A stretch of 37,438 nucleotides of DNA from Candidatus Fiminaster equi (GTDB lineage: Bacteria; Bacillota_I; Bacilli_A; RFN20; CAG-826). The stretch's first letter is position 1; each line of letters begins with the position of its first letter. The DNA is taken from the NCBI GenBank assembly GCA_018064745.1, contig JAGHUR010000035.1, positions 1-37,438 on the forward strand, read 5' to 3'. A model generated the notes under the pieces. That model made no database searches, was not told the DNA's origin, and saw nothing but the letters and a program-made list of their open reading frames with translations. The position numbers and the translations under genes are program-made. This document shows, piece by piece, positions 13,962 to 36,228 of the stretch.

Positions 13962-13983
13962 TTGAATAAAAATCTAACAGATT

Positions 13984-14009: not shown

Positions 14010-14047
14010 AATGTAAAAATTTGAAAAAATTTACATTTTGTTACATA

Positions 14048-14077
14048 TTGTAAGCGCTTGCGTACATGTTGTATAAT
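14048..14077 (+). promoter_or_regulatory. Promoter of the SipW/starch-binding operon with CGYRYAT box
   Basis: TTGTAA (14048-14053), 18-base spacer, TATAAT (14072-14077). The spacer contains CGTACAT (14061-14067). Transcription should start near 14084, giving a leader of about 48 bases. That leader has a small hairpin (TGGCG 14095-14099 with CGCCA 14109-14113) just before the ribosome site. Confidence 0.65.
14049..14062 (+). promoter_or_regulatory. Predicted cre (CcpA) operator
   Basis: TGTAAGCGCTTGCG matches the Gram-positive cre consensus TGWAARCGYTWNCW at all positions but the last. It overlaps the -35, where CcpA binding usually represses. The operon encodes starch-binding proteins, a natural target for carbon catabolite control. 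Confidence 0.75.
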
Positions 14078-14131
14078 TTATGCGCTTATACATCTGGCGT
14101 GACGATGGCGCCAAGAAAGGAAAACATAAGT

Positions 14132-14710: not shown

Positions 14711-14728
14711 TAATGGGAGGAAATAATT

Positions 14729-15625
14729 ATGAAAAAGAATAAAATTATTGGTCTCTCAGTTGCCATCCTTGGTACAGCAGTTTCAGTTGGCACCGCAGCA
14801 GCTTTATATGTCAAGAAAGCAGAAGATGCTCACTTTGGCATTGGTGCAAAATGGTCAGGACTTGATGGCACAGTTACATACAAAATTAATGATGCAACAT
14901 CAGGAACAGTTCAACCAGAATACAGAAAAGCCGAAGGCGCTGATGTTGGCGAAGGTCTTGGTGGAGAATTTACACAAGTTCACTATTCATTCCCATTAGG
15001 TGCATCATTTAGTGCAGACGTTCCAGCACAAAACTTTGTTGTTGGTAACTTCAAAGTTGAATTATCAAATATTCACACAGCTCTTCAAAATAAAGCAAAA
15101 ATTTGGGTTTGTGTAAATGGTTATACAGAAAATTCATGGGGTGCAGCAAATTATGCAACATGCTTTATGAATGCAGATGAAGCTCTTACAGCAGCAACAT
15201 ATTCTGTGAATCATGATATTGCAGTTTCTGTAAGCAAAGCACAAACAGTTGATGTTTATGTTAAATTAAATGAAGCAATTACTGATTTACTTTCTGGTGA
15301 TCACCCACTTGCTGAAGCAAAACCATTTGATATTTCAGTTTCATGGGGCGCTCCAACAAACTTCGAATTTGCTCACGTAGTTGGTAATGCAACAATGTGG
15401 CAAGAAGATGATGTCTACGCTATGGTTCCAAACATCAATAAAGCAAATAGTGAAGGCTTTGAATGGATCTTCAACAATCTTCCAGGAACAATGGGCAATG
15501 CAAAAGCCAAAAAAGGCGAAACATGGTCAGCAGATCCTGATGCAAAACTTGATGAATCAAAGACATATGATGTTTATTGGTCTGGTAGCACAACAGCCGC
15601 AGCATCATTCGTTGAACAAAAATAA
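14729..15625 (+). CDS. Secreted protein with SipW-type signal and possible C-terminal carbohydrate-binding domain
   Basis: A 298-residue product starting 18 bases after the previous stop behind GGGAGGAAA. The signal segment GLSVAILGTAVSVGTAAALY is followed by EDAHFGIGA. This resembles the ADNASFNIGA that follows the signal in the 16625 protein, so the two probably share an export and maturation signal. Residues about 35-215 look like a beta sandwich. The last 80 residues (AHVVGNATMW, GEWS-like aromatics, TYDVYWSG) have the rhythm of SusE/X25-type starch-binding modules, but this is a weak resemblance. The next element is a strong hairpin before the peptidase gene. Confidence 0.75.
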   Translation: MKKNKIIGLSVAILGTAVSVGTAAALYVKKAEDAHFGIGAKWSGLDGTVTYKINDATSGTVQPEYRKAEGADVGEGLGGEFTQVHYSFPLGASFSADVPAQNFVVGNFKVELSNIHTALQNKAKIWVCVNGYTENSWGAANYATCFMNADEALTAATYSVNHDIAVSVSKAQTVDVYVKLNEAITDLLSGDHPLAEAKPFDISVSWGAPTNFEFAHVVGNATMWQEDDVYAMVPNINKANSEGFEWIFNNLPGTMGNAKAKKGETWSADPDAKLDESKTYDVYWSGSTTAAASFVEQK

Positions 15626-15647
15626 ATTCATACTTTAATTATATTAA

Positions 15648-15673
15648 CCCTCTGCCCTTAAATGGGCAGGGGG
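15648..15673 (+). other. Intercistronic hairpin overlapping the sipW ribosome site
   Basis: A 10-bp GC-rich stem (15648-15657 with 15664-15673, one G-T pair, six-base loop) has only TTT after it, so it should terminate poorly. Its 3' arm contains AGGGGG (15668-15673), the only ribosome site for the ATG at 15684. It could hold peptidase translation below that of the secreted proteins upstream. Confidence 0.7.
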
Positions 15674-15683
15674 CTTTACCGTT

Positions 15684-16625
15684 ATGGAAGAAGAAAAGAA
15701 AACTGAACAAGCAGAACAATCAAAAGATACTTCAAAAAAGAAGAAAATTTTGAAATATGTTTTGAATGGCGTTATTTGGGGAGTAATCCTTGGATTTTTA
15801 ATTTACTCAGGATTAAAAGTAATTGATGTAAAATCCGGTTATAAATTACTTCCAAATCACTCTGCAGTTATCGTTTCAGACTCAATGAGTTATGTAAATG
15901 AAGCTAACTATTCTTATCTTGATAAGGATAACACAAAACCTATTAAGAAAAATGATGTTATTCATACATCAAATTTCAAAGATTTTGGTGATGTAAAAGT
16001 TTATGAAGATGTTGCTATTTATTTAGCAAAGGACGGAACATTAATTTGTCACCGTGTAATTGATAAATATGAAGACAATGGAATTAAGTACATCGTCACA
16101 AGAGGCGACGCAAACAATTCAACAGATGCTCCAGTTAATTTTGAATTAGTAAGAGGTAGAGTTACTTCTGTAACAGGTGGTGGTGGAGCTGTATTGTTCT
16201 TCCAATCCCCATATTTTGTTCTTGCATTATGTGGAACAGGCTTCTTTATCCTTTTAGGATATTTAATCTTTAACTTAAAAACAGAAAAGAAAGCCGCAGG
16301 CGTTGAAGGTGAATTAGCTGTTGTTGAAGAAAAACCTATTGAAGAACCAAAAGAAGAACCAGTAGCTGTAAAAAAACCTGTCGAAGAAAAACAAGCCGAG
16401 GAACCTGTTGCAGAGCCAACACCTGAAGAACCAGAACCTGTTGAAGAAAAACCAGTAGAACAACCAAAGGTTGAAGATACCCCTGAACCTGCTAAAAAGA
16501 ATGGTAGATTCATTCCAAAAGGCGGAGGTCAAAAACGTATTAATTGGCCACCAAAGAACACAAGATGGACAAAAGAAAATAATCCAACTGCAAATAAAAA
16601 GCGTGCCGAAGGAGGAGATAAATAA
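15684..16625 (+). CDS. sipW: SipW/ER-type signal peptidase I (S26B) with long Pro/Glu-rich tail
   Basis: A short charged N-terminus and a transmembrane helix (about 24-46) precede the catalytic region. That region has SDSM with nucleophile Ser67, ICHRVI with His123 in place of the bacterial Lys, and the RGDANN acidic box (Asp142). The Ser/His pair is the mark of the SipW, archaeal and ER class. A second transmembrane helix is at about 175-197. About 115 further residues follow: a Pro/Glu/Lys repeat region (about 213-270) and a basic end. Plain SipW proteins of about 190 residues lack this tail. The stop codon shares its last base with the next ATG (translational coupling). It should mature the products of 14132, 14729 and 16625. 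Confidence 0.88.
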   Translation: MEEEKKTEQAEQSKDTSKKKKILKYVLNGVIWGVILGFLIYSGLKVIDVKSGYKLLPNHSAVIVSDSMSYVNEANYSYLDKDNTKPIKKNDVIHTSNFKDFGDVKVYEDVAIYLAKDGTLICHRVIDKYEDNGIKYIVTRGDANNSTDAPVNFELVRGRVTSVTGGGGAVLFFQSPYFVLALCGTGFFILLGYLIFNLKTEKKAAGVEGELAVVEEKPIEEPKEEPVAVKKPVEEKQAEEPVAEPTPEEPEPVEEKPVEQPKVEDTPEPAKKNGRFIPKGGGQKRINWPPKNTRWTKENNPTANKKRAEGGDK

Positions 16626-17644
16626 TGAAAAATAAAAAGTTATTTGTTTCTATTTCAACTGCATTAGTATTTGGTTCAGTATTTGCAGCTTCATTTGGAA
16701 TTGCTCACGCATTACAGATTAAATCAGCTGATAATGCATCATTTAACATTGGTGCAGCGCCTGCTGAAGTAAAAACTAAAGTCTATTATCAATCAAGTTT
16801 CTTTTTCGGCGGTGAAGGAACTGTTTATGCATACGCTTGGGATAGCAGTGATGATTCACATAAGAATGCTGCATGGCCAGGCGAAGCAATGACAGCAGAA
16901 GATTACAAGCATGGTCTTTATTCATACGAAGTATCGGATAAATATGACACAATTATTTTCCATGCAAATGCTGGAGAAAGTGATCCAACAAAAACATCTA
17001 ATTTAACTATTGATAGAACTAATGTTTATTATTCCCAACATAACAATGTTTGGAAATCAAAACTCGAGGATTGTACATTCGCTTATTATTTAATTGGTAG
17101 CTTTAATAGCTGGGGTGAAAATAAGTACGAAAATGGTTTACTTAAGAATTTTGCAGGTGGAAATACTGCCGAATATATGAAAGTCGACTATCAATTCAAA
17201 AAAGATGATGAATTTAAAGTAGTTGATGAAGGCAAGGAAAATTGGTACGGAACAGGAAAATCTGAAGCTGGCGGAAATTATCTTGTTCATATGAACAATA
17301 GTGGAAACGCTACAGCATTTGTTTACTTTAATCCAACCACAACAAATTTATATGCTGGTACAAATTTCTATTATAATGCTAATGGAACTTCTTACGGATA
17401 CAAATTCTGGTGCCATCATTGGTATGATGCTACTGGTGCCGGCACATCATGGCCTGGAAAAGAAATGACTAGAGATGGTGGTAGCGGTTCATATTGGTAT
17501 TACGCAATGGTAGATGTTTCTTGTGATAGTATTATATTCAATAACCAAGGCGATGGTGGAAGCGGCAATTTAAAGACTGCTGATCTTAAAAACATTGATG
17601 CTGCAAAACCATATTACGATGGTGGTTGGAAAGCATCTAAATAA
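16625..17644 (+). CDS. Secreted starch-binding protein: CBM26-like, SusE/CBM48-like, CBM26-like
   Basis: A 339-residue product with an N-terminal signal (hydrophobic to about residue 29, then ADNASFNIGA). Residues about 50-145 form a CBM26-like starch-binding module (TVYAYAWD, AWPGEAMT, YDTIIFHANAG, NLTIDRTNVYY). Residues about 152-242 resemble a SusE/CBM48-type module (YYLIGSFNSWG, DEFKVVDEG). Residues about 245-335 are a second CBM26-like module (YKFWCHHWYD, SWPGKEMTRDG, DSIIFNNQGDGG). There is no catalytic domain, so it should bind starch or glycogen rather than cut it. It is the last gene of the cre-controlled operon and overlaps sipW by one base behind a GGAGG site. No LPXTG or transmembrane anchor is visible. 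Confidence 0.87.
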   Translation: MKNKKLFVSISTALVFGSVFAASFGIAHALQIKSADNASFNIGAAPAEVKTKVYYQSSFFFGGEGTVYAYAWDSSDDSHKNAAWPGEAMTAEDYKHGLYSYEVSDKYDTIIFHANAGESDPTKTSNLTIDRTNVYYSQHNNVWKSKLEDCTFAYYLIGSFNSWGENKYENGLLKNFAGGNTAEYMKVDYQFKKDDEFKVVDEGKENWYGTGKSEAGGNYLVHMNNSGNATAFVYFNPTTTNLYAGTNFYYNANGTSYGYKFWCHHWYDATGAGTSWPGKEMTRDGGSGSYWYYAMVDVSCDSIIFNNQGDGGSGNLKTADLKNIDAAKPYYDGGWKASK

Positions 17645-20980: not shown

Positions 20981-21000
20981 TATATTTGTGAACAAATATA
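20981..21000. repeat. Perfect palindrome after the 19134 gene
   Basis: TATATTTGT (20981-20989) and ACAAATATA (20992-21000) form 9-bp perfect arms around GA. It lies five bases after the stop and directly against the terminator stem. It could be a DNA operator or an extra 3' hairpin. Confidence 0.6.
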
Positions 21001-21027
21001 AGAGCACTTGCAAAAGTGCTCTTTTTT
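21001..21027 (+). terminator. Rho-independent terminator after the 19134 gene
   Basis: Perfect 9-bp stem AGAGCACTT (21001-21009) with AAGTGCTCT (21014-21022), GCAA tetraloop and six T. Confidence 0.92.
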
Positions 21028-21071
21028 GTTGGATAATACATCAACTTTTCAAAGAAAAATAAAACTATTAT

Positions 21072-21100
21072 TTGCATTCCTACGTACATGAGTGTATAAT
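21072..21100 (+). promoter_or_regulatory. Promoter of the protease-OppA operon with CGYRYAT box
   Basis: TTGCAT (21072-21077), 17 bases, TATAAT (21095-21100). CGTACATG (21083-21090) is identical to the eight bases at 14061-14068 in the SipW operon promoter. AAGGAGGAG lies before the ATG. Confidence 0.7.
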
Positions 21101-21148: not shown

Positions 21149-24100
21149 ATGCTAAAAGTTGGATTACTCTGCGGTGTAATTGCAGCCATGTCAGCAACTG
21201 GTATTAAAGCTAGTCTCGATTCAAGAGTTGAATCAAAGCCTTGCGATGCTAGATTCATTGTTGAACTCAAAAATGATATCGAGAACTTAGATGCTGATGA
21301 AGCAATCAAACAACAAGACTCTGTCTTCAAACAAATCAAAAGACAGGTCAATTCAAATGTTGTCAAAGATCGTAACTTCACAATCCTTAATAACGCATTT
21401 GTTATCAAGGGAAATAAAAGTGATAAAGAAGCTATCTTAAATATTCCAGGTGTTAAAGAGGTCACAGAAGATGGCCAACACATTGTAAAACACACTGAAC
21501 GTTCAAAAGGATTCTCAATCTCAGTGAATTCTAAAGGTGGTGGAGGTTCATCGATTGATCTTACCCAAAACGCTTCAGCTATTACAATGAAGAAACCTGA
21601 TAATACAAATGATGGCGAAGGTTCATTAATTGCGGTCTTAGATAACGAATTCTATTTAAAAGGACTTGATGAGGAATACAATGCTACTAAAAAGGCGACT
21701 GAACCATTATCACCTTATAATCACGTAACATTTACTGATTTAGATCCATCAGTCCATACTCGTATTTTTAACTTTAGTGAAATGAAAACTAGAGCTAAAG
21801 CTACACATGCTTATAGCAAACTCAAAAATGGTGCAGAAGCAGGTGAAGAAGGTTCTTTATATTTTAATAGAAAGGTTCCATTCTACTTCGACTATGCTGG
21901 TGATTCTTACACAGGCTCAAGAAGCGGCGCTACTGAAGACTTCGATGTTGAATCCAAGATTGATTTACACGGTTCACACGTTGCATCTATTGCAGCAGGA
22001 AATGACCCAGATTACAAAGGCATTGCTCCAAAAGCACAACTTGCATTGATGAAAGTCTTCACAGACGTTCACTCAACTCCAGCAAGTGATGCTACAGGAA
22101 ATGGTAAATATGGTTCATTCTCTGAAATCGGATTCCTTACAGCTCTTGAAGATGCTATCTTACTCAAGGTTGATGCTATTAACGTTTCAATCGGTAGTGA
22201 CTTATCAGACTTCGAACAAGGTTCAATTTCACAAAGAACATTAGATAAACTTGCTAAAAAGGGTATCCTAAGTGCTATTTCCGCAGGAAATGGTGGTAAA
22301 TCATCTTACGCATTTACAGGTGGATATGCTAACTGGACAAGAGAAATGGTTGAAACAGGCGTCATGGGTTCGTTTGCTAATAACGCATCCACAATGACAA
22401 TCGCTTCTGGCCAACCAGAATGGACATTCTATGAGAACTCATTAAAAATTGGTGATCAAGTCGTTCCTTACGAAGACCAAATCGTCAATCGTGAAGGAGA
22501 AGCTGAAGATTATCCTAATAACGAACATAGAATGGCTCAGCTTGTTACAGGAAGCCTTGATCCAGATGTAATTCCTACACCAGAGCAACAATTAATTGAT
22601 GTTGATTATGTCTATGTTAAAGGATTTGGTGAAACTAAAGACTATAAGAACAAGGATGTAAATAATAAGGTTGTCATCGTTAATCGTGGCAAAACTTCGT
22701 TCGAAGAAAAATATACTGCCGCTGATGATGCAGGAGCAGCCGCTCTTCTTATCATTAACAATGACCCAACAGAAAACGACTTTACATTTAGATGTGACTT
22801 CGGTTCAGCAAAGGGTTCAATTTCTAAACCAGTCGCACTTGTCTTATTCAAAGATAAACCATTCTTTGAGGCAAATCCTGAAGGCAAATTCCAAATTAAG
22901 AAAAACACTTCAAGTGAGAACAAACTTAAATACACTGTAAGTGACTTCTCTACTGATGGTGCAACATATGATCTTGATTTAAAACCAGAAATTACTACAC
23001 CAGGTTCAAATATTAAAGGTGCCGTCTGGCCACAAAATAAGGAAGAAAAGAAAGTAGAAAATAGATTTAAATCCTACGAATACTTCAATGGTACTTCAAT
23101 GGCTGCACCAAACTATGAAGGTGCAATGGCAGTTCTTGTCTCAAAGCTTTCCAAAGGAATGGTTGCAGATGATGACATGACACCAGCTGAAGAAAAACAA
23201 CTTCAAGCCTTCAAAGACACCATTAATATGAGAATGATGTCAACAGCAGTTCCAATGCATGACTACGAGAAGAATCAAGAAGACAACAAAAACTCTGTTA
23301 CTTCTCCACGTATGCAAGGTGCTGGTATGGTTGACCTCGGTGCTGCATATAACACTGAAACTTATATCAAAGGTTCTGATGTAAATAATCCAGGAGAAAA
23401 ATTAAATACTTCAAAGATTTTACTCAGAAACGGAGATAAGATTGCTAATGGCAATATTAAACTTGACTTTACAGTTGTTAATGAATCTAACTCAGTTAAA
23501 TCATTTGCAATTAAATACAACGTCATGAGACCAGCAAAGGCTTTATCTAATAAAGTACTTACTGATGACTATGCAACCCCAATTGAAGTAAGCGATGTTA
23601 GAAGCTTCACAGGTTGGGAATTCTATGCTCCTGAAGAAGGCAAAGTTGTTGTTGCAGATGGTAAAGCAAACTACAAAGATGTCTTCAAAGTTTCAAAAGA
23701 TATTGAATATTACAAAACTAGAGAAGCATATGAAGCCGAAATACCAGATGGTGTTATTCCAGAAGGTTTGTATTACTGTGCAGATCAGAATCCTCAAGAA
23801 GGACAAAAGGTTAATTGGCAAATTTGCCCAGACTATGTATATCAATCTGTAAAAGATGTTGAAATTGCAGTGGTTAATGGTCCAACAATTAATGTTCCTG
23901 CTAAAGGTTCATTAGATGTTTCATTGGATGAATTTGCAATTCCAGAAGCAGAAAAGAGCAAAATTGAAGCTTTATATGAAGCTGGTACCTACATCGAAGG
24001 TTATGTCTCATTAACTGCTCAAGGCGAATATCCAGACTTATCTGTCCCATATATGGGATTCTACTCATTAAGTGATAGACATTCAGATTATGATTATTCA

Positions 24101-25312
24101 ACTGCTCCAGTTGTAGAACCATTTGAATTTGAAAAAGATCCATTAAAGATCTATGGTTCTGACCTTATCAACGATGTTTCTAAATCACTTCTTGGTAAAG
24201 ATAACGTTGAATTCGGTTCACTTATGATGGCAGGTTATGCAAAGAATCCAAGAAATATTAATACTGAAGATGTTCTTACAAATGATTCATCATTTAAAAA
24301 ACTTCCAGGATTCTACCCAGTTGGCACAGCTCCAACTGAGAATGCTTCCATTAATAAGTACACTGAAGATCCAAGTAATGATATTTACATTGGTAACCCA
24401 CTTAAATCAAATACACTTGTTATTCAACAGTTTGTTAATAGATCTGTATTAGATAACTACTACACAATTGTTAATAAAGAAACAGGCGAAGAAGTTTACC
24501 GTAATGCATTAACAGATATGTTATTCGGTACAACAATGGGTAAACCAACACTTTATAAATCACACGTTGACGCTGATTATCTTGGTGCAGGATATGTTGC
24601 TCATAGAGCATATTCAATCGCTACACTATATGATCCAGAAACAAAAGTTCCATTCCCATCAGGCGAATATGAACTTAAGTTCAATTATCAACTTGCAGCA
24701 ACTGGTACATGGGTAAGCAAAGCTTACACACTTCACATTGATGCAGAAAGCCCAGTTGTTGAATCACTTCTTGACTTCAAAGAAGACGGTGTCGATAAAG
24801 TTCGTATTGTATTTAAGGATACACGTTGCGCATACGCACTCGTTGGTTCTAACAAAGTAGAAGTTAAGTACGATGAAAAACAAAAGATTTATTATGCTGA
24901 TGTAGATAAAGAAATTATCGATTCATCAATTAATAAAAATGCAACCGAATACTCCAATTCTAGACTCATTATTAGAGCTTATGACTATGCACGTGGAGAA
25001 ACAGTTGCAATCGTCCACTTTAGTGGTGATGATTATTCTCACTTCACCATAGCTCAAGGACAAGGTTTCTCAACAAATTCAGATTTCACCTATGAAAACG
25101 GAGTCTTAAAGATCTTCGATTACAGCAGTGGATCAAAAGTTGAAGTAACTAACACAAACGGATTTGCATTCATTACTGGTGAGCCAGTTAAAAAAGCAGA
25201 TCTTGCATTAATCCTTGGCTTATCCATTGGAGGCGGTGTGCTTGCCCTCGGTGGTATTGGTGTTGGAATATACTTCTTATTAAAGAAGAAAAAAATAATT
25301 GGAGGTAAATAA
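21149..25312 (+). CDS. Membrane-anchored subtilase with PA domain (lactocepin/C5a-peptidase-like)
   Basis: A 1387-residue exported serine protease of family S8. It has a signal peptide (about 1-21) and an I9-type propeptide (about 34-113). Catalytic residues are Asp165 in IAVLDNEF, His274 in DLHGSHVASIAAG, oxyanion Asn381 in SAGNGG, and Ser650 in FNGTSMAAP. A protease-associated (PA) domain is inserted between Asn and Ser at about 484-590 (GAAALLIINND). Fn3-like and other beta domains fill about 730-1330. A C-terminal transmembrane helix (about 1357-1381, GLSIGGGVLALGGIGVGIYF) and a Lys-rich stop anchor it to the cell instead of LPXTG. The Asp motif, DNEF rather than DTG/DSG, is divergent. 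The stop is directly before the oppA-like start, pointing to casein-type feeding on peptides. Confidence 0.93.
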   Translation: MLKVGLLCGVIAAMSATGIKASLDSRVESKPCDARFIVELKNDIENLDADEAIKQQDSVFKQIKRQVNSNVVKDRNFTILNNAFVIKGNKSDKEAILNIPGVKEVTEDGQHIVKHTERSKGFSISVNSKGGGGSSIDLTQNASAITMKKPDNTNDGEGSLIAVLDNEFYLKGLDEEYNATKKATEPLSPYNHVTFTDLDPSVHTRIFNFSEMKTRAKATHAYSKLKNGAEAGEEGSLYFNRKVPFYFDYAGDSYTGSRSGATEDFDVESKIDLHGSHVASIAAGNDPDYKGIAPKAQLALMKVFTDVHSTPASDATGNGKYGSFSEIGFLTALEDAILLKVDAINVSIGSDLSDFEQGSISQRTLDKLAKKGILSAISAGNGGKSSYAFTGGYANWTREMVETGVMGSFANNASTMTIASGQPEWTFYENSLKIGDQVVPYEDQIVNREGEAEDYPNNEHRMAQLVTGSLDPDVIPTPEQQLIDVDYVYVKGFGETKDYKNKDVNNKVVIVNRGKTSFEEKYTAADDAGAAALLIINNDPTENDFTFRCDFGSAKGSISKPVALVLFKDKPFFEANPEGKFQIKKNTSSENKLKYTVSDFSTDGATYDLDLKPEITTPGSNIKGAVWPQNKEEKKVENRFKSYEYFNGTSMAAPNYEGAMAVLVSKLSKGMVADDDMTPAEEKQLQAFKDTINMRMMSTAVPMHDYEKNQEDNKNSVTSPRMQGAGMVDLGAAYNTETYIKGSDVNNPGEKLNTSKILLRNGDKIANGNIKLDFTVVNESNSVKSFAIKYNVMRPAKALSNKVLTDDYATPIEVSDVRSFTGWEFYAPEEGKVVVADGKANYKDVFKVSKDIEYYKTREAYEAEIPDGVIPEGLYYCADQNPQEGQKVNWQICPDYVYQSVKDVEIAVVNGPTINVPAKGSLDVSLDEFAIPEAEKSKIEALYEAGTYIEGYVSLTAQGEYPDLSVPYMGFYSLSDRHSDYDYSTAPVVEPFEFEKDPLKIYGSDLINDVSKSLLGKDNVEFGSLMMAGYAKNPRNINTEDVLTNDSSFKKLPGFYPVGTAPTENASINKYTEDPSNDIYIGNPLKSNTLVIQQFVNRSVLDNYYTIVNKETGEEVYRNALTDMLFGTTMGKPTLYKSHVDADYLGAGYVAHRAYSIATLYDPETKVPFPSGEYELKFNYQLAATGTWVSKAYTLHIDAESPVVESLLDFKEDGVDKVRIVFKDTRCAYALVGSNKVEVKYDEKQKIYYADVDKEIIDSSINKNATEYSNSRLIIRAYDYARGETVAIVHFSGDDYSHFTIAQGQGFSTNSDFTYENGVLKIFDYSSGSKVEVTNTNGFAFITGEPVKKADLALILGLSIGGGVLALGGIGVGIYFLLKKKKIIGGK

Positions 25313-25313
25313 A

Positions 25314-28300
25314 ATGAAAAAAGGAAAATTACTTGTAACCTCAATTGCATTTGCTCTTGCGGGAGTTGGTGCAGTATCATGTCTTAGCGGATGCGGAAAA
25401 GATGATGGACCAGAAACAAAAATTAGTTTCTCATTCTCTATCGGACTTAAATCTGGAAAAAGTGAATTCCGTGTAAACGACACTGATCAAATCGTTGTCT
25501 ATGATAATGGTGTTGATACAGCAGGTCGTAGTTACAAATATTATTCATCAAAACCAGAAGCAGCAGTTGTTGATGAAAACACTGGTGCAGTTAGCTTTAA
25601 AAAAGTCGAAAAAGATATTCTATTCTTTGTTAAAGAAGCAAAAGTATCTAATCCAGCTCAAACAGTTAGACCAGTTAGCGTTATTACAAATGAAGTTAGT
25701 GACGCAAATGGTGGTTTTAACTTCGCAAGCTCTTCAGGTAAAGAAGCTATTGAAAAAAGAACAGAAATCCTTGGCAAACTTGAAAAGTACGTCATGGATT
25801 CACACTTAACTGGTATTACACTTTTCGACAATGGTGGATTAGTCAGATATTCTGATCGTGTAAATCTTCCTACTGGCGGAAAATATGTTACTGGTTATGG
25901 CTTTGGTCTTCTTACCGAAGGTACTCTTGATCCAAATAAACCATTAACTGGTGATGATGGAAAGAAAAACCCAGATTATTTACATAGCTCAATTGCTCAA
26001 GACTCACTTAAGATTAACCAATACACAGCTACTGGTTCTCAAGTTAGTGATTTAGCAGGCTATATCACTTCCTCATATTGGGGAGCAAGACTTAAAGGAA
26101 CAGACGGATATGAATGGTATCCATCTCTTGCTGCTGACAAAGTCAAACAACCAAAGCGTGATGCCGAAGGCAAACTTATGTATGACACTGATGGCAAAAC
26201 ACTTTTGTTTGAAGATACAGCAGACGACTTCCTTGAGCCAATCCACTTAGAAGATGACAATAAACTTGGTATGTATAAAAAGTGGAGAATTTATGTTAAG
26301 ACAGACAATGACGTTAATCATTCTGTACTTAAATTCCACCAAAAACTTGTTGATGGTAAAAATATTGTTTCTGGTCCATACGATAATGAACCAGTAACAA
26401 TTGAAGACTATGTCTTCCCATACAAGATGTTATTTACAGGTTCAAATGCCCTTATTCGTGGTACTGAAATGGCTAACGATACATCTTATGGTATTAAAGG
26501 CGCCGCAAGATATTTCTCTGATACACAATCAGAACTTTCTGAAGATGCAATTAATACAAAATGGAATACATACTATGGCGGTAAACTCGGTCTTAAAGGC
26601 GGTACAGATGATGTTAATGGTTCATATCTTGATATTGAATTAATCAATGCTATTGACCCATTCACAGCAATGTATACATTATCCTCAAGCTTAGTTTCTC
26701 CTTTAAAGGAGAGTATGTTTATGGGTGCAAACGCTATTGTTCCAAATAACTTTAAGAAATCAGCTACAGCTTATGGTACATTCAATAACGAACCAGAACC
26801 AGCAAATAGCAAGATTCTTAAATACACACTTTCATGTGGTCCATTTGTTTTAACAAAATGGGATAAGAACCAACAAATCGTTTTCGCTCGTAATGATGAC
26901 TGGTTTGAATACAAAAATCCAGTTTCAGGACAACTTACTGGTAGATATAACATTCCTGGTATTAACTACCGTGTTTACGATGTTTCTCAAAACCCAGAAA
27001 AAACTTGGGATCAATTCGAATTAAGCAACCTTGACTCAGTTGGTGTTCCAACCAAGAAAGTTGCAGAATGGAGAGGAAAACCAGGTATTTATGAAACTGA
27101 GGGTGATTCAACATTTAAATTAAATGTTAACTCATGTACTCAAGAACAATGGGATGCATTCAATACAAAAGAATGGCATAACCAACCAGGTTCATGGGAT
27201 GTTAAACCATGGATGTCAAATTCTAACTTCCTTGATGGTTTATTCTACTCAATTGACAGAAAACAATTCGCTGAAAAACGTGGTGTTAAACCATCAATTA
27301 ACTACTTCTCTGATTCATATATGTCAGATCCTCAAAACGTCCTTGGACAAGGTGGCTCATATAATGCTACTGAAGCACACAAGGAAGCTGTTAAAGGATA
27401 TGAAACAATTGATGAAAATGGTAATTCAGACTATGGTTACGATTTTGACAAAGCATTATCATGCTTTAGAAATGCTGTTAAAGAGTTATCTGATCAAAAT
27501 AAGATTGCTTTAGGCACAAAAGAAAATCCAACTGAAATCCATATTCATATTAGATGGATGTATCAAACCGACGAAAAAGAATACGGCGAAGATATTAAGT
27601 ACTACTTCGAAAAAGCATTTAACGATGATGCCGTTTGTGGTGGAAAAGTTAAACTTGTTGTTGATCAAGAAGCAGTTACTAACTGGGAAGACGTTTATAA
27701 CGTTTGGATGATGAAAGGTAAATTCGACCTTGGTTTCGGTGCTATTTCCGGTAACTCATTCAACCCACTTAACTTTATGGAAGTCTTAAAGAGTGATAAC
27801 TCTTCAAGCTTCACTCTTAACTGGGGTGCATCTACAAGTCAAATCGATCCAGTTCATCCAATTGTATATGATGATGGAACAGGCGCTAAAGAATGGTCAT
27901 ACGATGGACTTTGGGAAGTTGCAGACCATGGTGGAATTTTAAACAAAGGTGTTAAAGTCGACCCAGTTAAATCTTGTAAACTTGGTGATACAACTAGAGG
28001 TGGAGTTGGCATTGCTGACTACTATAATGGTGATTTTGATTTAGAAATTCCAATTTCATTTACTACATTCTCAAGTGAAGTTGACAACGTTGAATTTGAT
28101 GTCAACAGAGTCGATGCTTATTGTTATGGTAAAGGTAACGTAACTCTTGGCGAAAAATCTGAAAGCACACTTGTTTATGATAAAGCTAACAAAGTTATCA
28201 AAATTCACGTTTCACCTGAAGTTGCTAAGGATGTTAATGACCAAATTATTGCTGGTCAACACTTTACTCCACAACAGCAAGAAGAAGATCCAGCAAAATA

Positions 28301-28412
28301 CAAAAATGTATTTACTGATGCATACTATACAAGATATTATGATTTTGAAGTTTACTTCTCAATCATAATTGGTGAAACAGCAACCGAAAACTTTGTAACA
28401 GTAAAATTATAA
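25314..28412 (+). CDS. oppA: Peptide-binding lipoprotein of an ABC importer (OppA/SBP_bac_5-like) with extra N-terminal domain
   Basis: The start is the ATG at 25314 behind GGAGG (25301-25305) inside the end of the protease gene; an earlier TTG is not needed. Lipobox CLSGC gives Cys27. A Big/Ig-like domain (about 36-125) precedes the solute-binding fold. Typical family segments are YTLSCGPFVLTKWDKNQ, WFEYKNP, SNFLDGLFYSIDRKQFAEKR, and a later FDLGFGAISGNSFNPLNFME. At 1032 residues it is about twice the usual OppA length. The function would be capture of oligopeptides for the oppBCDF permease encoded 1.4 kb downstream. It shares an operon with the protease and the next lipoprotein. Confidence 0.87.
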   Translation: MKKGKLLVTSIAFALAGVGAVSCLSGCGKDDGPETKISFSFSIGLKSGKSEFRVNDTDQIVVYDNGVDTAGRSYKYYSSKPEAAVVDENTGAVSFKKVEKDILFFVKEAKVSNPAQTVRPVSVITNEVSDANGGFNFASSSGKEAIEKRTEILGKLEKYVMDSHLTGITLFDNGGLVRYSDRVNLPTGGKYVTGYGFGLLTEGTLDPNKPLTGDDGKKNPDYLHSSIAQDSLKINQYTATGSQVSDLAGYITSSYWGARLKGTDGYEWYPSLAADKVKQPKRDAEGKLMYDTDGKTLLFEDTADDFLEPIHLEDDNKLGMYKKWRIYVKTDNDVNHSVLKFHQKLVDGKNIVSGPYDNEPVTIEDYVFPYKMLFTGSNALIRGTEMANDTSYGIKGAARYFSDTQSELSEDAINTKWNTYYGGKLGLKGGTDDVNGSYLDIELINAIDPFTAMYTLSSSLVSPLKESMFMGANAIVPNNFKKSATAYGTFNNEPEPANSKILKYTLSCGPFVLTKWDKNQQIVFARNDDWFEYKNPVSGQLTGRYNIPGINYRVYDVSQNPEKTWDQFELSNLDSVGVPTKKVAEWRGKPGIYETEGDSTFKLNVNSCTQEQWDAFNTKEWHNQPGSWDVKPWMSNSNFLDGLFYSIDRKQFAEKRGVKPSINYFSDSYMSDPQNVLGQGGSYNATEAHKEAVKGYETIDENGNSDYGYDFDKALSCFRNAVKELSDQNKIALGTKENPTEIHIHIRWMYQTDEKEYGEDIKYYFEKAFNDDAVCGGKVKLVVDQEAVTNWEDVYNVWMMKGKFDLGFGAISGNSFNPLNFMEVLKSDNSSSFTLNWGASTSQIDPVHPIVYDDGTGAKEWSYDGLWEVADHGGILNKGVKVDPVKSCKLGDTTRGGVGIADYYNGDFDLEIPISFTTFSSEVDNVEFDVNRVDAYCYGKGNVTLGEKSESTLVYDKANKVIKIHVSPEVAKDVNDQIIAGQHFTPQQQEEDPAKYKNVFTDAYYTRYYDFEVYFSIIIGETATENFVTVKL

Positions 28413-28429: not shown

Positions 28430-29623
28430 ATGAAAAATAATATATTTAAAATTGTAACAGCTGCTCTTGGTGTTTTTTGCCTTGCCTCTTGTGGCGAAAA
28501 TGTTTCAAAAACTGATATTAAGCCTTTCGAAGGCACTGGATATCAAGAAAGAGATTTCTTTGGAATTAAACAATTAAATAGAAGTTTATTTGTTGGACAA
28601 CCAGAATTAATCGTTCTCGATTCAATGCCACAAAATTTCCTTTCAAAGGTTAAATTCGAATCTCTTAATAATCAAATAGTCGAAGTCTCTGCTACTGGAT
28701 TAATGAATCCAGTTAGCGAGGGCTCAACTAAGATTTTGGTAAAAGATGATCAAAATAATCTTCTTGGTAAACTCAATATTTTGGTTGTTAAAGATGACGA
28801 AACAAATACTAGAAACGCATTACAAAACATTAAAGATTTATATAAGAATGGCTATGTCGAGCCTACAAAAGTTCATAAAATGGAATATTCTTATGAAGAA
28901 TATTATAGAGATGGTGTAATTGATCATGGCTATACTTCATTTGATGAAACCTATTATGACAAGACAAACGCTATTTTCTATCTCGGCGGAGACGATGTCA
29001 TGAGATATACCCGTGGCGGTGCAAGAGAAGCTGCAACTGGTCATTGGCATTTCCAAGTGCTTGGTAGAAAAACAAGAATGGTTCACATTACTGAAAATGC
29101 AAAGAACTACTATGATTTCAACTCTTCAGCATATGGAACTGAAAAATATAAGGCAATCGAGGACATTCTCAATTTATTCTTCGTCTCAGGTTCAAAAATT
29201 ATCAATGATATGCTTGAAGAATATTCAGGCAAAGATGATTTCTTAAACTTCTGTGATTTTTATAAAACTGATCCAAATCTAAACATCTATGCAGATAATG
29301 ATAATAACATTAGTGCAAACATTGTTTATAAAGATGAACCAGGTGTAGTTGATACAAAAGACGAACTTCAATATCTTGATATGTATGAAGGTACAGAGTA
29401 CATCGAAAATGATAACATTTCATTTATTTACAATAGTAATAAATGCACCGGTTATGATATTGATGCAACTTATGACTATCAATATGATGGAAGTAATTGG
29501 CAAAGAGATTTCCATAGATCAATGGAATTTGATGAAGATTTTGAACCAGAAATGTTTGATTATGAAGACAAGGAAATGCAAGAACTCGGTTTCCGTTTAG
29601 TTGATCAAATGTACGATTTATAA
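28430..29623 (+). CDS. Predicted lipoprotein with an Ig-like domain
   Basis: The ATG at 28430 follows GGAGGG (28417-28422). The lipobox is CLASC (Cys21). Residues about 40-130 resemble a Big2-like Ig domain (RSLFVGQPELIVLDS, VEVSATGLMNPVSEGSTKIL). The rest, to 397 residues, is rich in Asp, Tyr and Asn with no known motif. It is the third gene of the protease-oppA operon, 17 bases after oppA, so a role in peptide capture or protease docking is plausible but unproven. Its tandem position between the binding protein and permease operons suggests it is an accessory of the transporter. Confidence 0.8.
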   Translation: MKNNIFKIVTAALGVFCLASCGENVSKTDIKPFEGTGYQERDFFGIKQLNRSLFVGQPELIVLDSMPQNFLSKVKFESLNNQIVEVSATGLMNPVSEGSTKILVKDDQNNLLGKLNILVVKDDETNTRNALQNIKDLYKNGYVEPTKVHKMEYSYEEYYRDGVIDHGYTSFDETYYDKTNAIFYLGGDDVMRYTRGGAREAATGHWHFQVLGRKTRMVHITENAKNYYDFNSSAYGTEKYKAIEDILNLFFVSGSKIINDMLEEYSGKDDFLNFCDFYKTDPNLNIYADNDNNISANIVYKDEPGVVDTKDELQYLDMYEGTEYIENDNISFIYNSNKCTGYDIDATYDYQYDGSNWQRDFHRSMEFDEDFEPEMFDYEDKEMQELGFRLVDQMYDL

Positions 29624-29689: not shown

Positions 29690-29718
29690 TTGATATGAGA
29701 AATCTATTTTTATATAAT
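29690..29718 (+). promoter_or_regulatory. Promoter of the oppBCDF operon
   Basis: TTGATA (29690-29695), exact 17-base spacer, TATAAT (29713-29718). It lacks the CGYRYAT box. The leader of about 45 bases contains CGTTT-TGCG-AAACG (29726-29739) and AAAAC-CGGG-GTTTT (29745-29758), two small hairpins. No Shine-Dalgarno precedes the ATG at 29771. Confidence 0.8.
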
Positions 29719-29770: not shown

Positions 29771-30817
29771 ATGTTAAAGTACTCTATTAAGAGAATTATA
29801 TTAGCTTTAGTGACAGCGTTCATTATTTTAACGCTTACTTTTTTCCTTGTTAAATCACTTCCACCTAGAGGTGTTGTTTCACCAGACGTAAACGTTCGTT
29901 ATGCTTTCTATGTCGACCAAATGGAATTAGGTTACGTAGTAGATATGCCAAATCCGGTTGAAGGTTGGACATTGCTTGAGCATTTCCACTTCGATGTAGA
30001 CCATAGTGACCATTATTTCTACACAAAGCCAATTTTAGAGCAATATGGTGCATGGCTTGGTAACATTGTTACAAAATGGGACTGGGGCAGATCAACAGTT
30101 ATTGAACCAAACTCATCTGCTATTAATATTATTTTCTCAAGACTTCCAGTTTCATTCTCAGTTAATATTATTTCCGTTGTTATTTCAGTTCCTTTAGGAA
30201 TTTTATTTGGTATTATCGCAGGACTTAAGAAAAATACATGGCTTGACCACTTTATTTCAACTTTAGTCATGATTTTTATTTCTATTCCATCCTTCGTTAT
30301 TATCATTTTCTTAGTTTATTTACTCGGTATCAAAGCCGGTTTACCAACGATATGGCCGACAAACGATGCAGCGGCGGGCACGAAAGCGCTGGGTTATATA
30401 ATTCCAGTTCTATCTTTGTCGTTTGGCTCTGTTTGCGGTTACACACGTTTCGTTCGTGCTGAACTTTGTGAGGTTATGTCCTCAGAATACCTTTTACTTG
30501 CTCGTACAAAAGGTTTAACAAAGAACCAAGCAATTACAAGACACGCTTTAAGAAATGCCTTTGTTCCAATTCTTCCATCAATCTTGGCTGAATTCATTGG
30601 TGTCTTCTCAGGAAGTATGATTCTTGAATCAATTTACGATATTCCAGGCATTGGTAATATTTATATTAGAGCTCTTAATCAATCAAACCCAGACTACAAC
30701 GTCTTAATGGTTGATATGGCTGTTTTTACAACGGTCGGATTGCTCGCTGGTATTATCCTTGACCTTTCATATGGATTTATTGATCCTCGTATTAGAATGG
30801 GAGAAAAGAATAGTTAA
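29771..30817 (+). CDS. oppB: Oligopeptide ABC transporter permease OppB/DppB
   Basis: A 348-residue BPD_transp_1 permease with a first helix at about 8-28, an extracytoplasmic loop of about 100 residues, then five helices. The ATPase-docking EAA loop is at ARTKGLTKNQAITRHALRNA. The C-terminal GxxxLxSIYDIPGIG-type segment (ESIYDIPGIGNIYIRAL) is the OppB/DppB signature. It forms the membrane pore with OppC. It is first in an operon with tight spacing to oppC (2 bases). No Shine-Dalgarno is visible, unlike the rest of the operon. Confidence 0.93.
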   Translation: MLKYSIKRIILALVTAFIILTLTFFLVKSLPPRGVVSPDVNVRYAFYVDQMELGYVVDMPNPVEGWTLLEHFHFDVDHSDHYFYTKPILEQYGAWLGNIVTKWDWGRSTVIEPNSSAINIIFSRLPVSFSVNIISVVISVPLGILFGIIAGLKKNTWLDHFISTLVMIFISIPSFVIIIFLVYLLGIKAGLPTIWPTNDAAAGTKALGYIIPVLSLSFGSVCGYTRFVRAELCEVMSSEYLLLARTKGLTKNQAITRHALRNAFVPILPSILAEFIGVFSGSMILESIYDIPGIGNIYIRALNQSNPDYNVLMVDMAVFTTVGLLAGIILDLSYGFIDPRIRMGEKNS

Positions 30818-30819: not shown

Positions 30820-32934
30820 ATGGCTAAAGAAAAAGATGAATTTAAATTAACTAATTTGCCTCCTGAGGTGAATGATCCAGAAATCACCAAGGACGATTTT
30901 AAGCTTGTACAGGTTGATGCTAAGATCCATGATCAAAAGTTCCAAACAAAGCCAACAACTTTCATTAAGGACTGCTTCAAGAGATTCTGTAAGAATAAAT
31001 CAAGCGTTGTCGCTGCATTTATCCTTGGTATTTTACTTGTTTTATCAATTCTTGTTCCAGCAGTTGGTAAAACTAGTGAAGTTCACGAAACAGATGGTTC
31101 ACATCCAACTAACTATTATCTTGAACCAAAACTTTTCCCAGCAGGAACAGGGTTCTGGGATGGAACAAAAAGAATGGTTGATATTCCTCTTAATCCTGAA
31201 ACAGGTTATCCATCAGAAACTTACATTAGAAGCGCCATTATTTCAGATATTGAAAAAGGCGAAGAACAATATACAAAAACTGCAACTACCTTTGGTAAGG
31301 ATGGTTATGTACAATTAAGTTACTTCCAAACTTTCCCAGTTCCAGAAGTTGATGATGACGGAAATGTTATTAAAAATGGTTATGTTGCAATGAGCGCCGC
31401 AACTCAAATAACAAAATTTAACTTTACTGATTCATTTAAAATCACAAATTTTGATGTATTTGATTTAGCGAAACTTCAAGCTGCAGAAACTAAAGAAGAA
31501 GGCAAGAAATTCCCAGATGGCTATACTCCTGGCAAAGCTGCCTTAGCTCTTAAGTTTGATAAAGGCGGCGAATCATACGAAATTGAGCTCACTGAGTACA
31601 AGAGTGTATTTAATATTGGAACAAGTGAAGAAGCAATTGATGTTTCTAGCGAATTTGCTTCCTTCTATGAAGAACACGCAGTAGAGAAGAGCTGGTCAGA
31701 TAAGAAAGTTGAAAATCCATCTCTTGAAATTAGACTTAAAAACGAAAATACTAAGGATTCCAGCAGAAATACTTGTATTTTAGTTAAATCTATCAAGATT
31801 GAATCAACTGGTGAGACTTCAGAATTATTTAATTCATTGTCATTTGATAATGGTTCCATTTGCTTAAATCGTACCGCAAAAACTGGCGGTGTTTGGGCAT
31901 GCAAGAATGATATTCTCCATTCTCGTATGGGGGCATACCTTTCAAAAGCTATTCTTTGCTCATTCACATACGATACATATGAAGCCGCTTTAGGTACAGA
32001 TAATGTCGATGTTCCAATTTCAGATATCGATAAATGGGTTGATGCAGGTTATCTAGAATACGATTCAGGTATTCTTCCAGGTGGTGTTAAAATTCCATCA
32101 GCATTTAAGTGTGTTATTTTAGATCCAGCAAAATGCCCACTTAAAGAAGCATTTACTCAAGATGATTTGGTGTATAACACCGATACAGGTCGTGTAATAA
32201 AAGTTCATGCTAAAGTTATGAAATACAAGACCTTATTTGGTCTTGAATCAATGCCAACATTTATCATGGGAACTGATCAAACAGGTAGAGATATGTTCAT
32301 TTATGTCTTTGAAGGACTTAGAACATCCCTTTTACTTGGCATTGCAACAACAGTCATTTGTTTCTTATTTGGTTTACTTTGGGGCTCTGTCTCAGGTTAC
32401 TTTGGTGGAAACGTCGACTTAGTCATGGAGCGATTTACAGATATATTATCTGGTGTTCCATGGATTGTTGTTATGACCTTAACAATTATTCACTTAGGAA
32501 GTAACTTCTTAACATTCGCATTAGCTTTGTGTCTTACAGGTTGGATTGGCACGGCCGCAACTACGAGAACACAGTTCTATAGATTTAGAGGTAGGGAATA
32601 CGTTCTCGCATCTCGTACACTTGGCGCATCTCATGGTAGACTTATCGCCAAACACATTTTACCAAATGCTATGGGTACAATTATTACTTCAGCAGTTTTA
32701 ATGGTTCCATCAGTTATCTTTAGCGAAGCTACAATCTCATATTTAGGCTTAGGCTTTAAGAACTTAGCATCTTTAGGTGTTATTCTTGCAGATAACCAAA
32801 TTGAGCTTACAAACCACCCATACTTATTAATATTCCCATCAGTAATCATCGCATTACTTATGATTTCATTTAACTTATTTGGTAATGGCTTAAGAGACGC
32901 TGTTAACCCAAGTTTGAAAGGAGAAGGTGAATAA
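30820..32934 (+). CDS. oppC: Oligopeptide ABC transporter permease OppC with a ~395-residue ectodomain
   Basis: The N-terminal cytoplasmic part (about 1-62) and the first helix (about 63-83) are followed by about 395 residues of non-membrane sequence (85-480). In ordinary OppC/DppC of about 300 residues only some 30-50 residues lie there. The canonical permease core then follows: GTDQTGRDMF (484-493), helices, and the EAA loop at SRTLGASHGRLIAKHILPNA. The ending, GLGFKNLASLGVIL to GNGLRDAVNPSLKGEGE, is typical. The insertion must face outside the cell. I see no known fold in it; it is rich in Lys, Asp, Glu and beta-like segments. It could bind OppA or peptide. Confidence 0.9.
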   Translation: MAKEKDEFKLTNLPPEVNDPEITKDDFKLVQVDAKIHDQKFQTKPTTFIKDCFKRFCKNKSSVVAAFILGILLVLSILVPAVGKTSEVHETDGSHPTNYYLEPKLFPAGTGFWDGTKRMVDIPLNPETGYPSETYIRSAIISDIEKGEEQYTKTATTFGKDGYVQLSYFQTFPVPEVDDDGNVIKNGYVAMSAATQITKFNFTDSFKITNFDVFDLAKLQAAETKEEGKKFPDGYTPGKAALALKFDKGGESYEIELTEYKSVFNIGTSEEAIDVSSEFASFYEEHAVEKSWSDKKVENPSLEIRLKNENTKDSSRNTCILVKSIKIESTGETSELFNSLSFDNGSICLNRTAKTGGVWACKNDILHSRMGAYLSKAILCSFTYDTYEAALGTDNVDVPISDIDKWVDAGYLEYDSGILPGGVKIPSAFKCVILDPAKCPLKEAFTQDDLVYNTDTGRVIKVHAKVMKYKTLFGLESMPTFIMGTDQTGRDMFIYVFEGLRTSLLLGIATTVICFLFGLLWGSVSGYFGGNVDLVMERFTDILSGVPWIVVMTLTIIHLGSNFLTFALALCLTGWIGTAATTRTQFYRFRGREYVLASRTLGASHGRLIAKHILPNAMGTIITSAVLMVPSVIFSEATISYLGLGFKNLASLGVILADNQIELTNHPYLLIFPSVIIALLMISFNLFGNGLRDAVNPSLKGEGE

Positions 32935-32935
32935 T

Positions 32936-34699
32936 ATGGAAAACGAAAATAGACAACCATTATTATCCGTAAAAGATTTACGCATCAACTTCTCAACAGA
33001 CCACGGTTACGTCCAAGCTGTTAGAGGTGTTTCCTTTGACTTATACAAGGGTGAAACCCTTTGTATTGTCGGCGAATCAGGTTCAGGTAAATCAGTTACC
33101 AATAAAGCTATCATGGGTATTTTAGCTGCCAATGGTAGAATCGTTGAAGGTTCTATCATGTATGAAGGCGAAGATTTAACCAAGGTTTCTGAAGATGAAT
33201 TCCATAGAATTCGTGGTCATAAGATTGGCATGATTTTCCAAGATCCACTTTCTTCACTTAACCCAATCATGAGAATTGGTAAACAAATTACCGAAGCTAT
33301 GCTTATTAACGCATCACGTACTAAGAAAATGTACAATGACTTAGTCGTTGATGAACTTGTTCAATATAAGAACGCTAAGACAGAACTTAAAACTGGTTTG
33401 GCAAAATATAAAGAAAATATTAAGTTCTTAAAATCTGAGAAGAAAAAACAAATTGCTCAAGCTAAGAATAAAGCCTCCAATGAAATTGAAGGTCGTAAAT
33501 ATAGCTTGAAACGTGAACTTGGTGCAGAAAAATTCGCAATCAATGATGAATACAACACAAAGATTGAAGCTGTAAAAGGAAATGCAAAAGAAATTGCAAG
33601 ACTTGAAGAAGAAAGAAAGAATGCACTTGCTAAAGTAATTGACGAAAACAATACAAAAGTTAATGAAGCTTTAGCAGATAAAGCAGATCTCAAAGCTGAC
33701 GCAAATGCTAAGGCTATTGAACTTACCAAAAAGTTTGATGATGAAATTGCATCTTTGAAACTTGAATCTAAAAAAGCTATTGCAGAACTCAAGGCAAAAT
33801 ATAAACCAATCATCAAGGATTCTAAGGCTAAGTTTAAAGCAAAATCTAAGGTTGCAAAGGTTGAAGTTAGAAAGTTCAAAAAGGACTTAAAATCTAAATA
33901 TCACCAGGAAATCAAGGGTATTTTTGCTAAATTTAAAGAAAATAAAGCCAAACTTTCAACTAAATTCAGACACTTGAAAGTCGAATATAAAGAAGCTCAT
34001 AGCCGTTATGTTTCATCTTTAAGAATTACTAAGGCTGAAGCAAAAGCAAAAGCTTTAAAGATTATGAAAGAAGTTGGTATTTCAGAACCAGAGAAACGTT
34101 TCAGACAATATCCATTTGAATTCTCAGGTGGTATGAGGCAACGTATTGTTATTGCTATCGCATTAACAGCAGACCCAGACATCTTAATCTGTGATGAACC
34201 AACAACTGCTCTTGATGTTACAATTCAAGCTCAAATTCTTGAACTTATTAATAATTTAAAGAAAGAAAGACAACTTTCATGTATTTTCATTACTCACGAC
34301 TTAGGCGTTGTTGCTAACATGGCCGATAGAGTCGCAGTTATGTATGCAGGTAAGATTGTTGAATATGGAACAGAAGAAGATATCTTCTACGATCCAAAAC
34401 ACCCATACACTTGGGCTCTTCTTTCCTCAATTCCAGATGTTGACTCAAATGAAAAACTTGAGGCAATTCCAGGAACCCCACCAAATATGATTTATCCACC
34501 AGTAGGTGATGCCTTTGCTTTAAGAAGCAAATACGCTATGGCAATTGACTTTAAGAAAGAACCTCCTTTCTTCAAAGTTAGTGACACTCACTATGCTGCA
34601 ACTTGGTTACTTGATCCAAGAGCACCAAAAGTTGAAATGCCAAAGATTGTTAAAGCTCGTATTGAAAACTCCTTAAAAAATAAGAAAGGAGGAAAATAA
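32936..34699 (+). CDS. oppD: Oligopeptide ABC transporter ATPase OppD with ~240-residue coiled-coil insertion
   Basis: The ATG at 32936 follows the oppC stop by one base behind AAGGAGAAGG; an upstream GTG is part of that site. Of 587 residues, the ATPase parts are Walker A GESGSGKS (46-53), Q-loop FQDP (101-104), signature FSGGMRQR (396-403), Walker B ILICDEP (416-422) and H-loop His454. Between Q-loop and signature, residues about 127-367 are a Lys/Glu/Ala-rich coiled coil absent from the usual ~330-residue OppD. The C-terminal oligopeptide domain is recognisable ([17 protein letters not shown]), but the Cys residues of the usual GCxFxxRC motif are replaced (GDAFALRS). ATP hydrolysis should be intact. 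Confidence 0.93.
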
Positions 34700-34701: not shown

Positions 34702-36201
34702 ATGGCTAGAAAAGTTACTTATAGACAAGAACTCGTCGATAATAATATCGAACTTTCTGTTAGACACTTAAAGCAATTCTTTAAGTTTGGTCATGGCGCC
34801 TCCTCTTCAAAAACTAAAGCTGTTCATGACATTTCCTTTGATATTAAAAAAGGTGAATGTTTTGGTCTTGTTGGTGAATCCGGTTGTGGTAAAACCACAA
34901 CAGGACGTTCCCTAATTCGTCTTTATCATATAACTTCAGGTTCTGTTTACTTTGAAGGACACAGAATTAGCGCAGGTAAGAGATGGAACGAAAAAGAAAT
35001 TAAATGGACTAAATATCGTGCAAAACAAAAAGTTCTCGAACTTAAAAGAGAAGAAAAACAAGATATTTACTATTCTCAAATTCCAGAAGACTGCAAAAAC
35101 AAAATCCTTAAAGAAATTGAAAACTACACAAAACTTAAATCTGATTTATCTTTTGCTAAATCCGTATATTTAAAGAAACTTCTTGATAATGAAGAAATAG
35201 AAGATATTTTTGAAAAAGAAGCTGCTGATAAGAAAGCAAAACAAGAATACAAAATTGAAAAGAAAAATATTGGATTAACAGTAAAAGCTTCAAAGAAGAT
35301 TATTGATTTCTTGAGAAAAGATGCTCTTAACAAAGAAAACAAGTCAAGAGTTGACCAAGCTCAAGCTGAACAAGATGCTAAAGACATTAGAGCAAAATAT
35401 AAAGCTGAGATTGATGAAATTATTGCTAACCGTAAGAAAGTTGTTAAAGAGCAAAAAGAAATTATCAAGCAAATCAACTTTGATAACAAACATGTCGATA
35501 AGAAACTCATGAGCAAGATGCAAATGATTTTCCAAGACCCAGTTGATTCTCTTGATCCAAGAATGACAGTTGAAGACATCATTCAAGAAGGCTTACATAT
35601 TCAAGGCCAACACAACAAGTTTGCTAATAGTAAAAAGGTTGCAGAAGTCCTTGAAAAAGTCGGCTTAATTCCAGAATATGCTTCACGTTATCCACATGAA
35701 TTCTCAGGCGGACAAAGACAAAGAATTGGTATTGCTCGTGCACTCGTTATGAATCCAAGCTTCTTAATTTGTGATGAACCAATTTCTGCTCTTGACGTTT
35801 CTATTCGTGCTCAAATTATTAACCTTCTTAATGACTTAAAAGAAGAAATGGGCTTAACAATTATGTTTATCGCTCACGACTTATCAGTCGTTAAGTATTT
35901 CTGTGATAGAATTGCTGTTATGTATTTTGGTGAGATGGTTGAGCTTGCCACAAGTGAAGAATTATTCAAACATCCTTTACACCCATATTCACAAGCTTTA
36001 CTCTCCGCAATTCCTAAACCAGATCCACTTACCGAAAAATCTCGTAAAAGAATTGTGTATAATCCAAGAACAGCTCACGATTATTCAAAAGAAAAACCAA
36101 CTCTTCAAGAAATTGTTCCAGGACACTTTATCCTTGCAAATTCTGAAGAAATGGAAAAATATCGCGCTCAAATTAAAGAACTCGATAAGAAAGCAAAATA
36201 A
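34702..36201 (+). CDS. oppF: Oligopeptide ABC transporter ATPase OppF with ~175-residue coiled-coil insertion
   Basis: A 499-residue partner of OppD behind GGAGGAAAA. Walker A is GESGCGKT (58-65). A charged helical stretch (about 93-268, rich in Lys/Glu) then separates Walker A from the Q-loop FQDP (277-280), a different place from the OppD insertion. The signature FSGGQRQR (334-341), Walker B FLICDEP (354-360) and H-loop His392 are intact. The C-terminal region (about 440-499) lacks the Cys-containing GCxFxxRC motif. It is the last gene of the operon, followed by a terminator. Confidence 0.93.
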
Positions 36202-36206: not shown

Positions 36207-36228
36207 ATGCACCTTTAGGTGCATTTTT
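36207..36228 (+). terminator. Rho-independent terminator after oppF
   Basis: Stem ATGCACC (36207-36213) with GGTGCAT (36218-36224), loop TTTA, then TTTT. The next gene's ATG is only 18 bases downstream, so some read-through is likely. Confidence 0.8.

Follow-up and report, generated by a model that had tools for sequence, protein, structure and literature searches.

A two-layered extracellular domain in the OppC permease of Candidatus Fiminaster equi, a candidate docking scaffold for a lipid-anchored OppA

In the usual picture of a peptide importer, the external loops are small and all work outside the cell falls to the binding protein. The OppC permease encoded on a 37,438-nucleotide contig of Candidatus Fiminaster equi (assembly GCA_018064745.1, contig JAGHUR010000035.1; this whole stretch is referred to here as the window) raises the question of what role a large external domain of the permease itself could have. 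The gene (30820..32934; forward strand, as are all operon features given below) encodes a protein of 704 aa, identified using Pfam and a structural model. Helix 1 was placed at residues 60-83 by the model (30997..31068), with its hydropathy peak at residues 63-81, while the permease domain begins with the motif GTDQTGRD at residue 484 and continues to the end of the protein (residues 484-704, 32269..32931; Pfam, and Foldseek to 8z21_B). The insert between them was found to consist of 400 residues (84-483), in agreement with the approximately 395 residues reported between helix 1 and the GTDxxGRD segment in the initial annotation. By the topology of OppC, the segment from helix 1 to the permease domain is extracytoplasmic, the side on which the binding protein docks.

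Matches above the Pfam gathering score were obtained for OppC_N at residues 47-82 and BPD_transp_1 at residues 518-700, with no Pfam family identified between them. When 32 related inserts were scanned singly against Pfam (E up to 1), no family was found in more than one member, and a profile of the insert gave no match among solved chains. A known permease domain as the identity of the insert was thus ruled out by Pfam for this insert and the 32 related ones, and its description as a large additional domain stood. The best NCBIfam model for the protein was Opp3C (NF045475) at 268 bits, below the curated cut-off of 450, so that it is not classed as an equivalog of that model. Its assignment as the permease of an OppC-type peptide importer is based on the presence of BPD_transp_1 with OppC_N and on its being encoded with OppB, OppD, OppF and an SBP_bac_5 protein.

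Terminator-like hairpins were identified by pattern scan at both ends of this gene set, upstream of the operon (21000..21023) and after oppF (36207..36224), with sixteen such hairpins found in the window versus 8.4 expected in shuffled sequences. Promoter-like sites before the subtilase gene (21071..21100; 10 of 12) and before oppB (29690..29718; 11 of 12, a consensus match only) provide a weak basis for assigning promoters, as such sites were no commoner than in shuffles. The operon begins with a cell-surface subtilase (21149..25312) possessing S8 and PA domains (Pfam), an N-terminal signal, all three catalytic motifs (AVLD, HGSH and GTSMAAP), a C-terminal membrane helix at residues 1352-1370 and an Fn3-like match just under the Pfam cut-off, a domain set that we take to resemble that of lactocepin-like proteases. 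An OppA-like lipoprotein of 1032 aa (25314..28412; Pfam and alignment) starts 1 nt past the subtilase stop, and is followed by an accessory lipoprotein of 397 aa (28430..29623) that carries a Big_2 Ig-like domain at approximately 28643-28753 (Pfam, E 1.8e-5). OppB (29771..30817; Pfam and NCBIfam) is a permease of 348 aa with no large extracellular domain by hydropathy. Downstream of OppC lie the ATPases OppD (590 aa, 32927..34699) and OppF (499 aa, 34702..36201), identified with Pfam, each with a charged insert and with MMSYN1_0167 and MMSYN1_0168, respectively, as best NCBIfam models.

Elsewhere in the window, two large lipoproteins with no Pfam match (204-3773 and 3882-6455) were found to have in common a motif resembling SDxWSxDDxxHWHxC. 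Positions 6530-8995 encode a fusion of a 5TMR-LYT sensor with a SpoIIE phosphatase, in a genome assembly of approximately 0.9 Mb. In the region 13251-17644, a membrane protein resembling signal peptidase (15684-16625) is accompanied by small secreted proteins whose leaders are alike, a gene set similar in appearance to one of the SipW/TasA type.

The gene order in relatives was found to be subtilase, an OppA of approximately 1000 aa, accessory lipoprotein(s), OppB, OppC, OppD and OppF. The locus table comprised 64 loci besides the window, with the near copies L056 and L062, the partial loci L083 and L089, L086 (X in its translation), L095, L104 and L108 omitted. Among loci L043-L091, of which 44 are tabulated, 37 have sequence upstream of OppA, and in 36 of these an S8 gene immediately precedes OppA, the exception being L090; the same arrangement was identified in L114, but was absent from all 15 loci of L096-L113 that have a complete OppA. 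Between OppA and OppB, a further ORF (300 aa or longer) was present in all 38 loci of L043-L082, L088 and L091 in which OppA is visible, and absent from L084, L085, L087, L090 and every locus of L096-L114 with a visible OppA. A second ORF, larger than the accessory lipoprotein (560-987 aa) and with a lipoprotein-like leader, was observed between that lipoprotein and OppB in L045, L050, L052, L053, L057, L059, L072 and L074.

A single copy of OppC was identified in the genome of Candidatus Fiminaster equi. Within the genus, a match to OppC at E <= 0.001 was found in 23 of the 24 genomes (this one included); reading of the match rows by eye gave 13 genomes with the long form (some counted from split matches or contig ends), five with a form of 531-577 aa, five with ordinary-length permeases only and one with no match. 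Across the order, the insert alone produced matches, many of them partial, in 114 of 245 genomes and 19 of 54 genera. At the level of the class, insert profile A4 matched 44 of 395 genomes and 15 of 192 genera, several of these matches being weak or short, in the families labelled f1, f12, f19, f23, f25 and f27. The matches with named records come from uncultured Bacilli, 'Erysipelotrichaceae', 'Bacillales' and one Acholeplasmataceae MAG, and rumen or gut was the sampling source of many. For three of 52 loci (L092-L094), which belong to other phyla, the match was restricted to the start of the permease. Occurrence in genus, order and class rules out a gene fusion, a misassembly or a feature unique to this assembly; the long-OppC domain is real, widespread in its clade and modular. 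A literature search returned no description of an OppC of this kind, though one may still be published.

The modular nature of the domain was revealed by alignment of short and long OppCs. The difference is clear-cut: the short forms L100 and L101 retain the equivalents of approximately residues 84-148 and 378-483 of the OppC of the window and are devoid of residues 149-377, and the extracellular domain can thus be divided into a core and a nested module of approximately 229 aa. The N-terminal part of the core (residues 84-148, 31069..31263, PKLF..GTGFWDGT) and its C-terminal part (residues 378-483, 31951..32268, FTYDTYEA..KCPL..MPTFIM) flank the module (residues ~149-377, 31264..31950), with the core motifs being PKLF..GTGFWDGT, FxYDxYEA, KCP and YKYxGYxxMP. 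Two further short forms were identified, L102, which is 95% identical to L101 and lies on a contig without OppA, and L115 (452 aa). Short OppCs range from 443 to 452 aa and long ones from 630 to 690 aa within one family, natural pairs that allow asking what such domains do.

Among 43 OppCs, mean pairwise identity was 0.79 for the permease domain, 0.51 for the N-terminal and 0.35 for the C-terminal part of the core, and 0.30 for the module, making the last the fastest-evolving part of the protein. In a permease-domain tree of 65 rows, the short forms fell inside a supported set together with long forms (98/95), and the character 'long' required three changes, for which reason loss of the module appears likelier from these sequences than its late gain, with the midpoint root being uncertain and long branches flagged. 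A third type of OppC (500-556 aa; L096, L097, L098, L099, L103 and L105), with a different external domain, formed one supported group in this tree and occurs in the genus of the window as well. An OppC-type permease domain was also observed within an open frame of 1259 aa (G609:C88:10999-11682).

In a fold search with the whole of OppC (mean pLDDT 82), matches to the permease domain dominated, and the insert was therefore modelled by itself with AlphaFold2 (mean pLDDT 90, pTM 0.81). Foldseek gave no match to the PDB under E 0.001 for this model, the best being 8e-3 with a low probability. The best VIA-align neighbour was the carbohydrate-binding module (CBM) of PbXyn10C (Z 7.5, 152 aligned of 159 residues, rmsd 4.8), followed by the beta domain of a secreted metallopeptidase (4yu6, Z 7.3), a GH12 cellulase (6.6) and a sialidase lectin domain (6.5), with CBM22 and CBM29 also listed. 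These matches lay mostly over model residues 54-241, corresponding to the nested module, and barely covered the core. The nested module is therefore predicted to be a beta-sandwich whose nearest structural neighbours are carbohydrate-binding modules and lectin-like domains, and is named here a beta-sandwich of CBM-like arrangement rather than a CBM, since Z values under 8 may, according to the tool, mean a mere common arrangement. The initial description of the insert as a domain of unknown fold accordingly needs revision for the module, within that limit, while the core was scarcely covered by the search.

The OppA of the window was also found to be oversized, as had been pointed out from its sequence, with approximately twice the normal length. 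It consists of an Ig-like front region (approximately 25383-25718), an SBP_bac_5 domain (26382-27803) and a C-terminal beta region. Big_2 was not detected in the front region of this OppA on its own; it matched the N-termini of OppA in 10 of 19 relatives (best E 1.8e-9), which supports an Ig-like front. The length of the OppC domain was correlated with that of OppA (Spearman 0.78, 54 loci, uncorrected for kinship). Distance matrices were compared for small samples of 33 and then 30 loci picked for complete genes, with r values given without a permutation test. Over the 30 loci, the module followed the OppA binding domain (r 0.76) and the lipoprotein (0.77) after removal of the OppC transmembrane domain, OppB, OppD and OppF, the values being 0.55 and 0.60 when the fast-evolving protease was also removed, while the correlation of the module with the protease fell to 0.04 once OppA was removed. 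This co-divergence can reflect a shared history of fast-evolving genes.

The cell envelope also bears on how OppA would be positioned. The penicillin-binding transpeptidase family PF00905 was absent from the genome of Candidatus Fiminaster equi (80% complete) and from 141 of 146 genomes of its family, the control search being positive in 10 of 14 known genomes; of the five family genomes that keep it, four belong to one genus. Judged by this one protein family, the clade is probably wall-less, and a wall enclosing OppA is improbable in a family nearly all of whose members are without the transpeptidase. The host group is one of tiny, probably wall-less gut bacteria.

We give about even chances to the OppC domain being an extracellular docking scaffold for the lipid-anchored OppA, and maybe also for the accessory lipoprotein. 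Such a scaffold would act in the manner of the extracellular domains of AmiC or of MalF P2, but in the other Opp subunit and with a different composition. In such an importer, the membrane-anchored subtilase would cut proteins outside the cell, the oversized OppA would capture the resulting peptides and OppB-OppC with OppD-OppF would import them. The conserved core of the OppC domain would cap the permease beside the pore, and the nested beta-sandwich would project outward and keep OppA, perhaps together with the accessory lipoprotein, in place or oriented above the channel. Docking is favoured because the domain lies on the side of the binding protein, because OppA is enlarged in parallel and because the module diverges in step with the OppA binding domain and with the lipoprotein, and less so with the protease. 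The external scaffold proposed in the initial annotation is therefore consistent with the predicted extracytoplasmic domain, the enlarged OppA and the precedent of AmiC, the contact with OppA itself being inferred. A further proposal, improbable in our estimation, is that the subtilase and the Ig-bearing OppA and lipoprotein assemble on the OppC platform as one digest-and-import complex on the wall-less cell; if so, peptides would be handed by the protease to the binding protein and on to the channel with none lost to competitors.

Several observations argue against docking. The OppA tether, measured from the lipobox Cys to a conserved OppA motif, showed a weak trend with domain length (Spearman 0.53; 36 of 55 loci with both marks, the Cys being placed by a loose pattern and in some cases miscalled). 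Short OppCs were paired with spacers of 39-43 residues (three of three measured), but the long-domain loci L112, L113 and L122 have spacers of 37-55 residues, so that tether length does not follow the presence of the module strictly. Long domains are also present in loci without protease or lipoprotein (L090 and L106-L113). Moreover, the predicted beta-sandwich resembles sugar-binding domains, a likeness that docking would not need and that could instead point to the module binding glycans or glycoproteins (mucin, plant or microbial), as a CBM in function, and keeping the substrate or the cell near food. The structural neighbours described above and a number of conserved aromatics, among them W359 (38 of 43 OppCs), are in keeping with glycan binding; we nonetheless consider it unlikely, given a best Z below the confidence line, the finding of no CBM family in the 32 inserts with Pfam (E up to 1) and the possibility that most of the conserved aromatics serve core packing.

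Another function would be to cover the pore as a lid or filter, gating peptides or selecting them by size, for which no specific contact with OppA would be required. The domain is spliced in beside the pore-lining permease domain and part of it, the core, is conserved, but the module evolves fastest and can be wholly absent, unlike a gate, which makes this function improbable. A highly divergent surface module in an apparently wall-less clade could also act mainly as an exposed shield that diversifies under pressure from phages, protists or the host, with no role in transport. This is improbable, as several families conserve length and frame positions while the sequence between them varies. 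Docking, the reading preferred here, would make the domain a variant of a known theme, an importer permease with an external docking domain, with the same even odds applying, and would connect the build of the importer with wall loss and with proteolysis at the cell surface in gut bacteria about which little is known.

Comparison with known systems revealed both shared and differing features. The permease domain is homologous to that of OppC/DppC of E. coli and M. tuberculosis (8z21, 8j5q, 8wd9 and 8z1v), which have only a short segment from helix 1 to the GTD motif; the alignment with E. coli OppC (8z21_B, 302 aa) begins at residue 83 of that protein, indicating that the corresponding gap there is small. 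Among the Mollicutes Opp models of NCBIfam (MMSYN1_0165 to 0168), OppD and OppF of the window with their charged inserts score best, under the cut-off, while the OppC model MMSYN1_0166 has a length of 307 versus 704 aa for OppC of the window. CBM22 and CBM29 (4mgq, 4xuo, 1gwm) share a beta-sandwich arrangement with the nested module, at a Z of at most 7.5; unlike them, the module has no sequence match to these families and sits inside a permease. P2 of the maltose importer subunit MalF is inserted at another place, in a sugar permease. It has been described to move around MalE (PMC8134467). By such description, E. coli MalF P2 and the OppC domain are both folded extracytoplasmic domains, next to the binding protein, in the permease of a type I importer. 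AmiC of pneumococcus is the larger of the Ami pair and its OppB-type subunit; in the window, by contrast, OppB is ordinary and OppC bears the domain, which is thus not of the AmiC type. According to PMC11192437, residues 31-278 of this 498-aa permease form the domains ECD1 and ECD2, which are proposed on the basis of an AlphaFold-Multimer prediction to clamp the oligopeptide-binding lipoprotein. The two systems, both with Opp-type permeases from Gram-positive lineages, share, by description rather than by sequence, a large extracellular part of the permease; they differ in that OppC of the window carries approximately 400 residues in two layers, with genes for an S8 protease and a lipoprotein alongside. 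This comparison points to separate origins of external docking platforms in subunits of the OppB type (AmiC) and of the OppC type.
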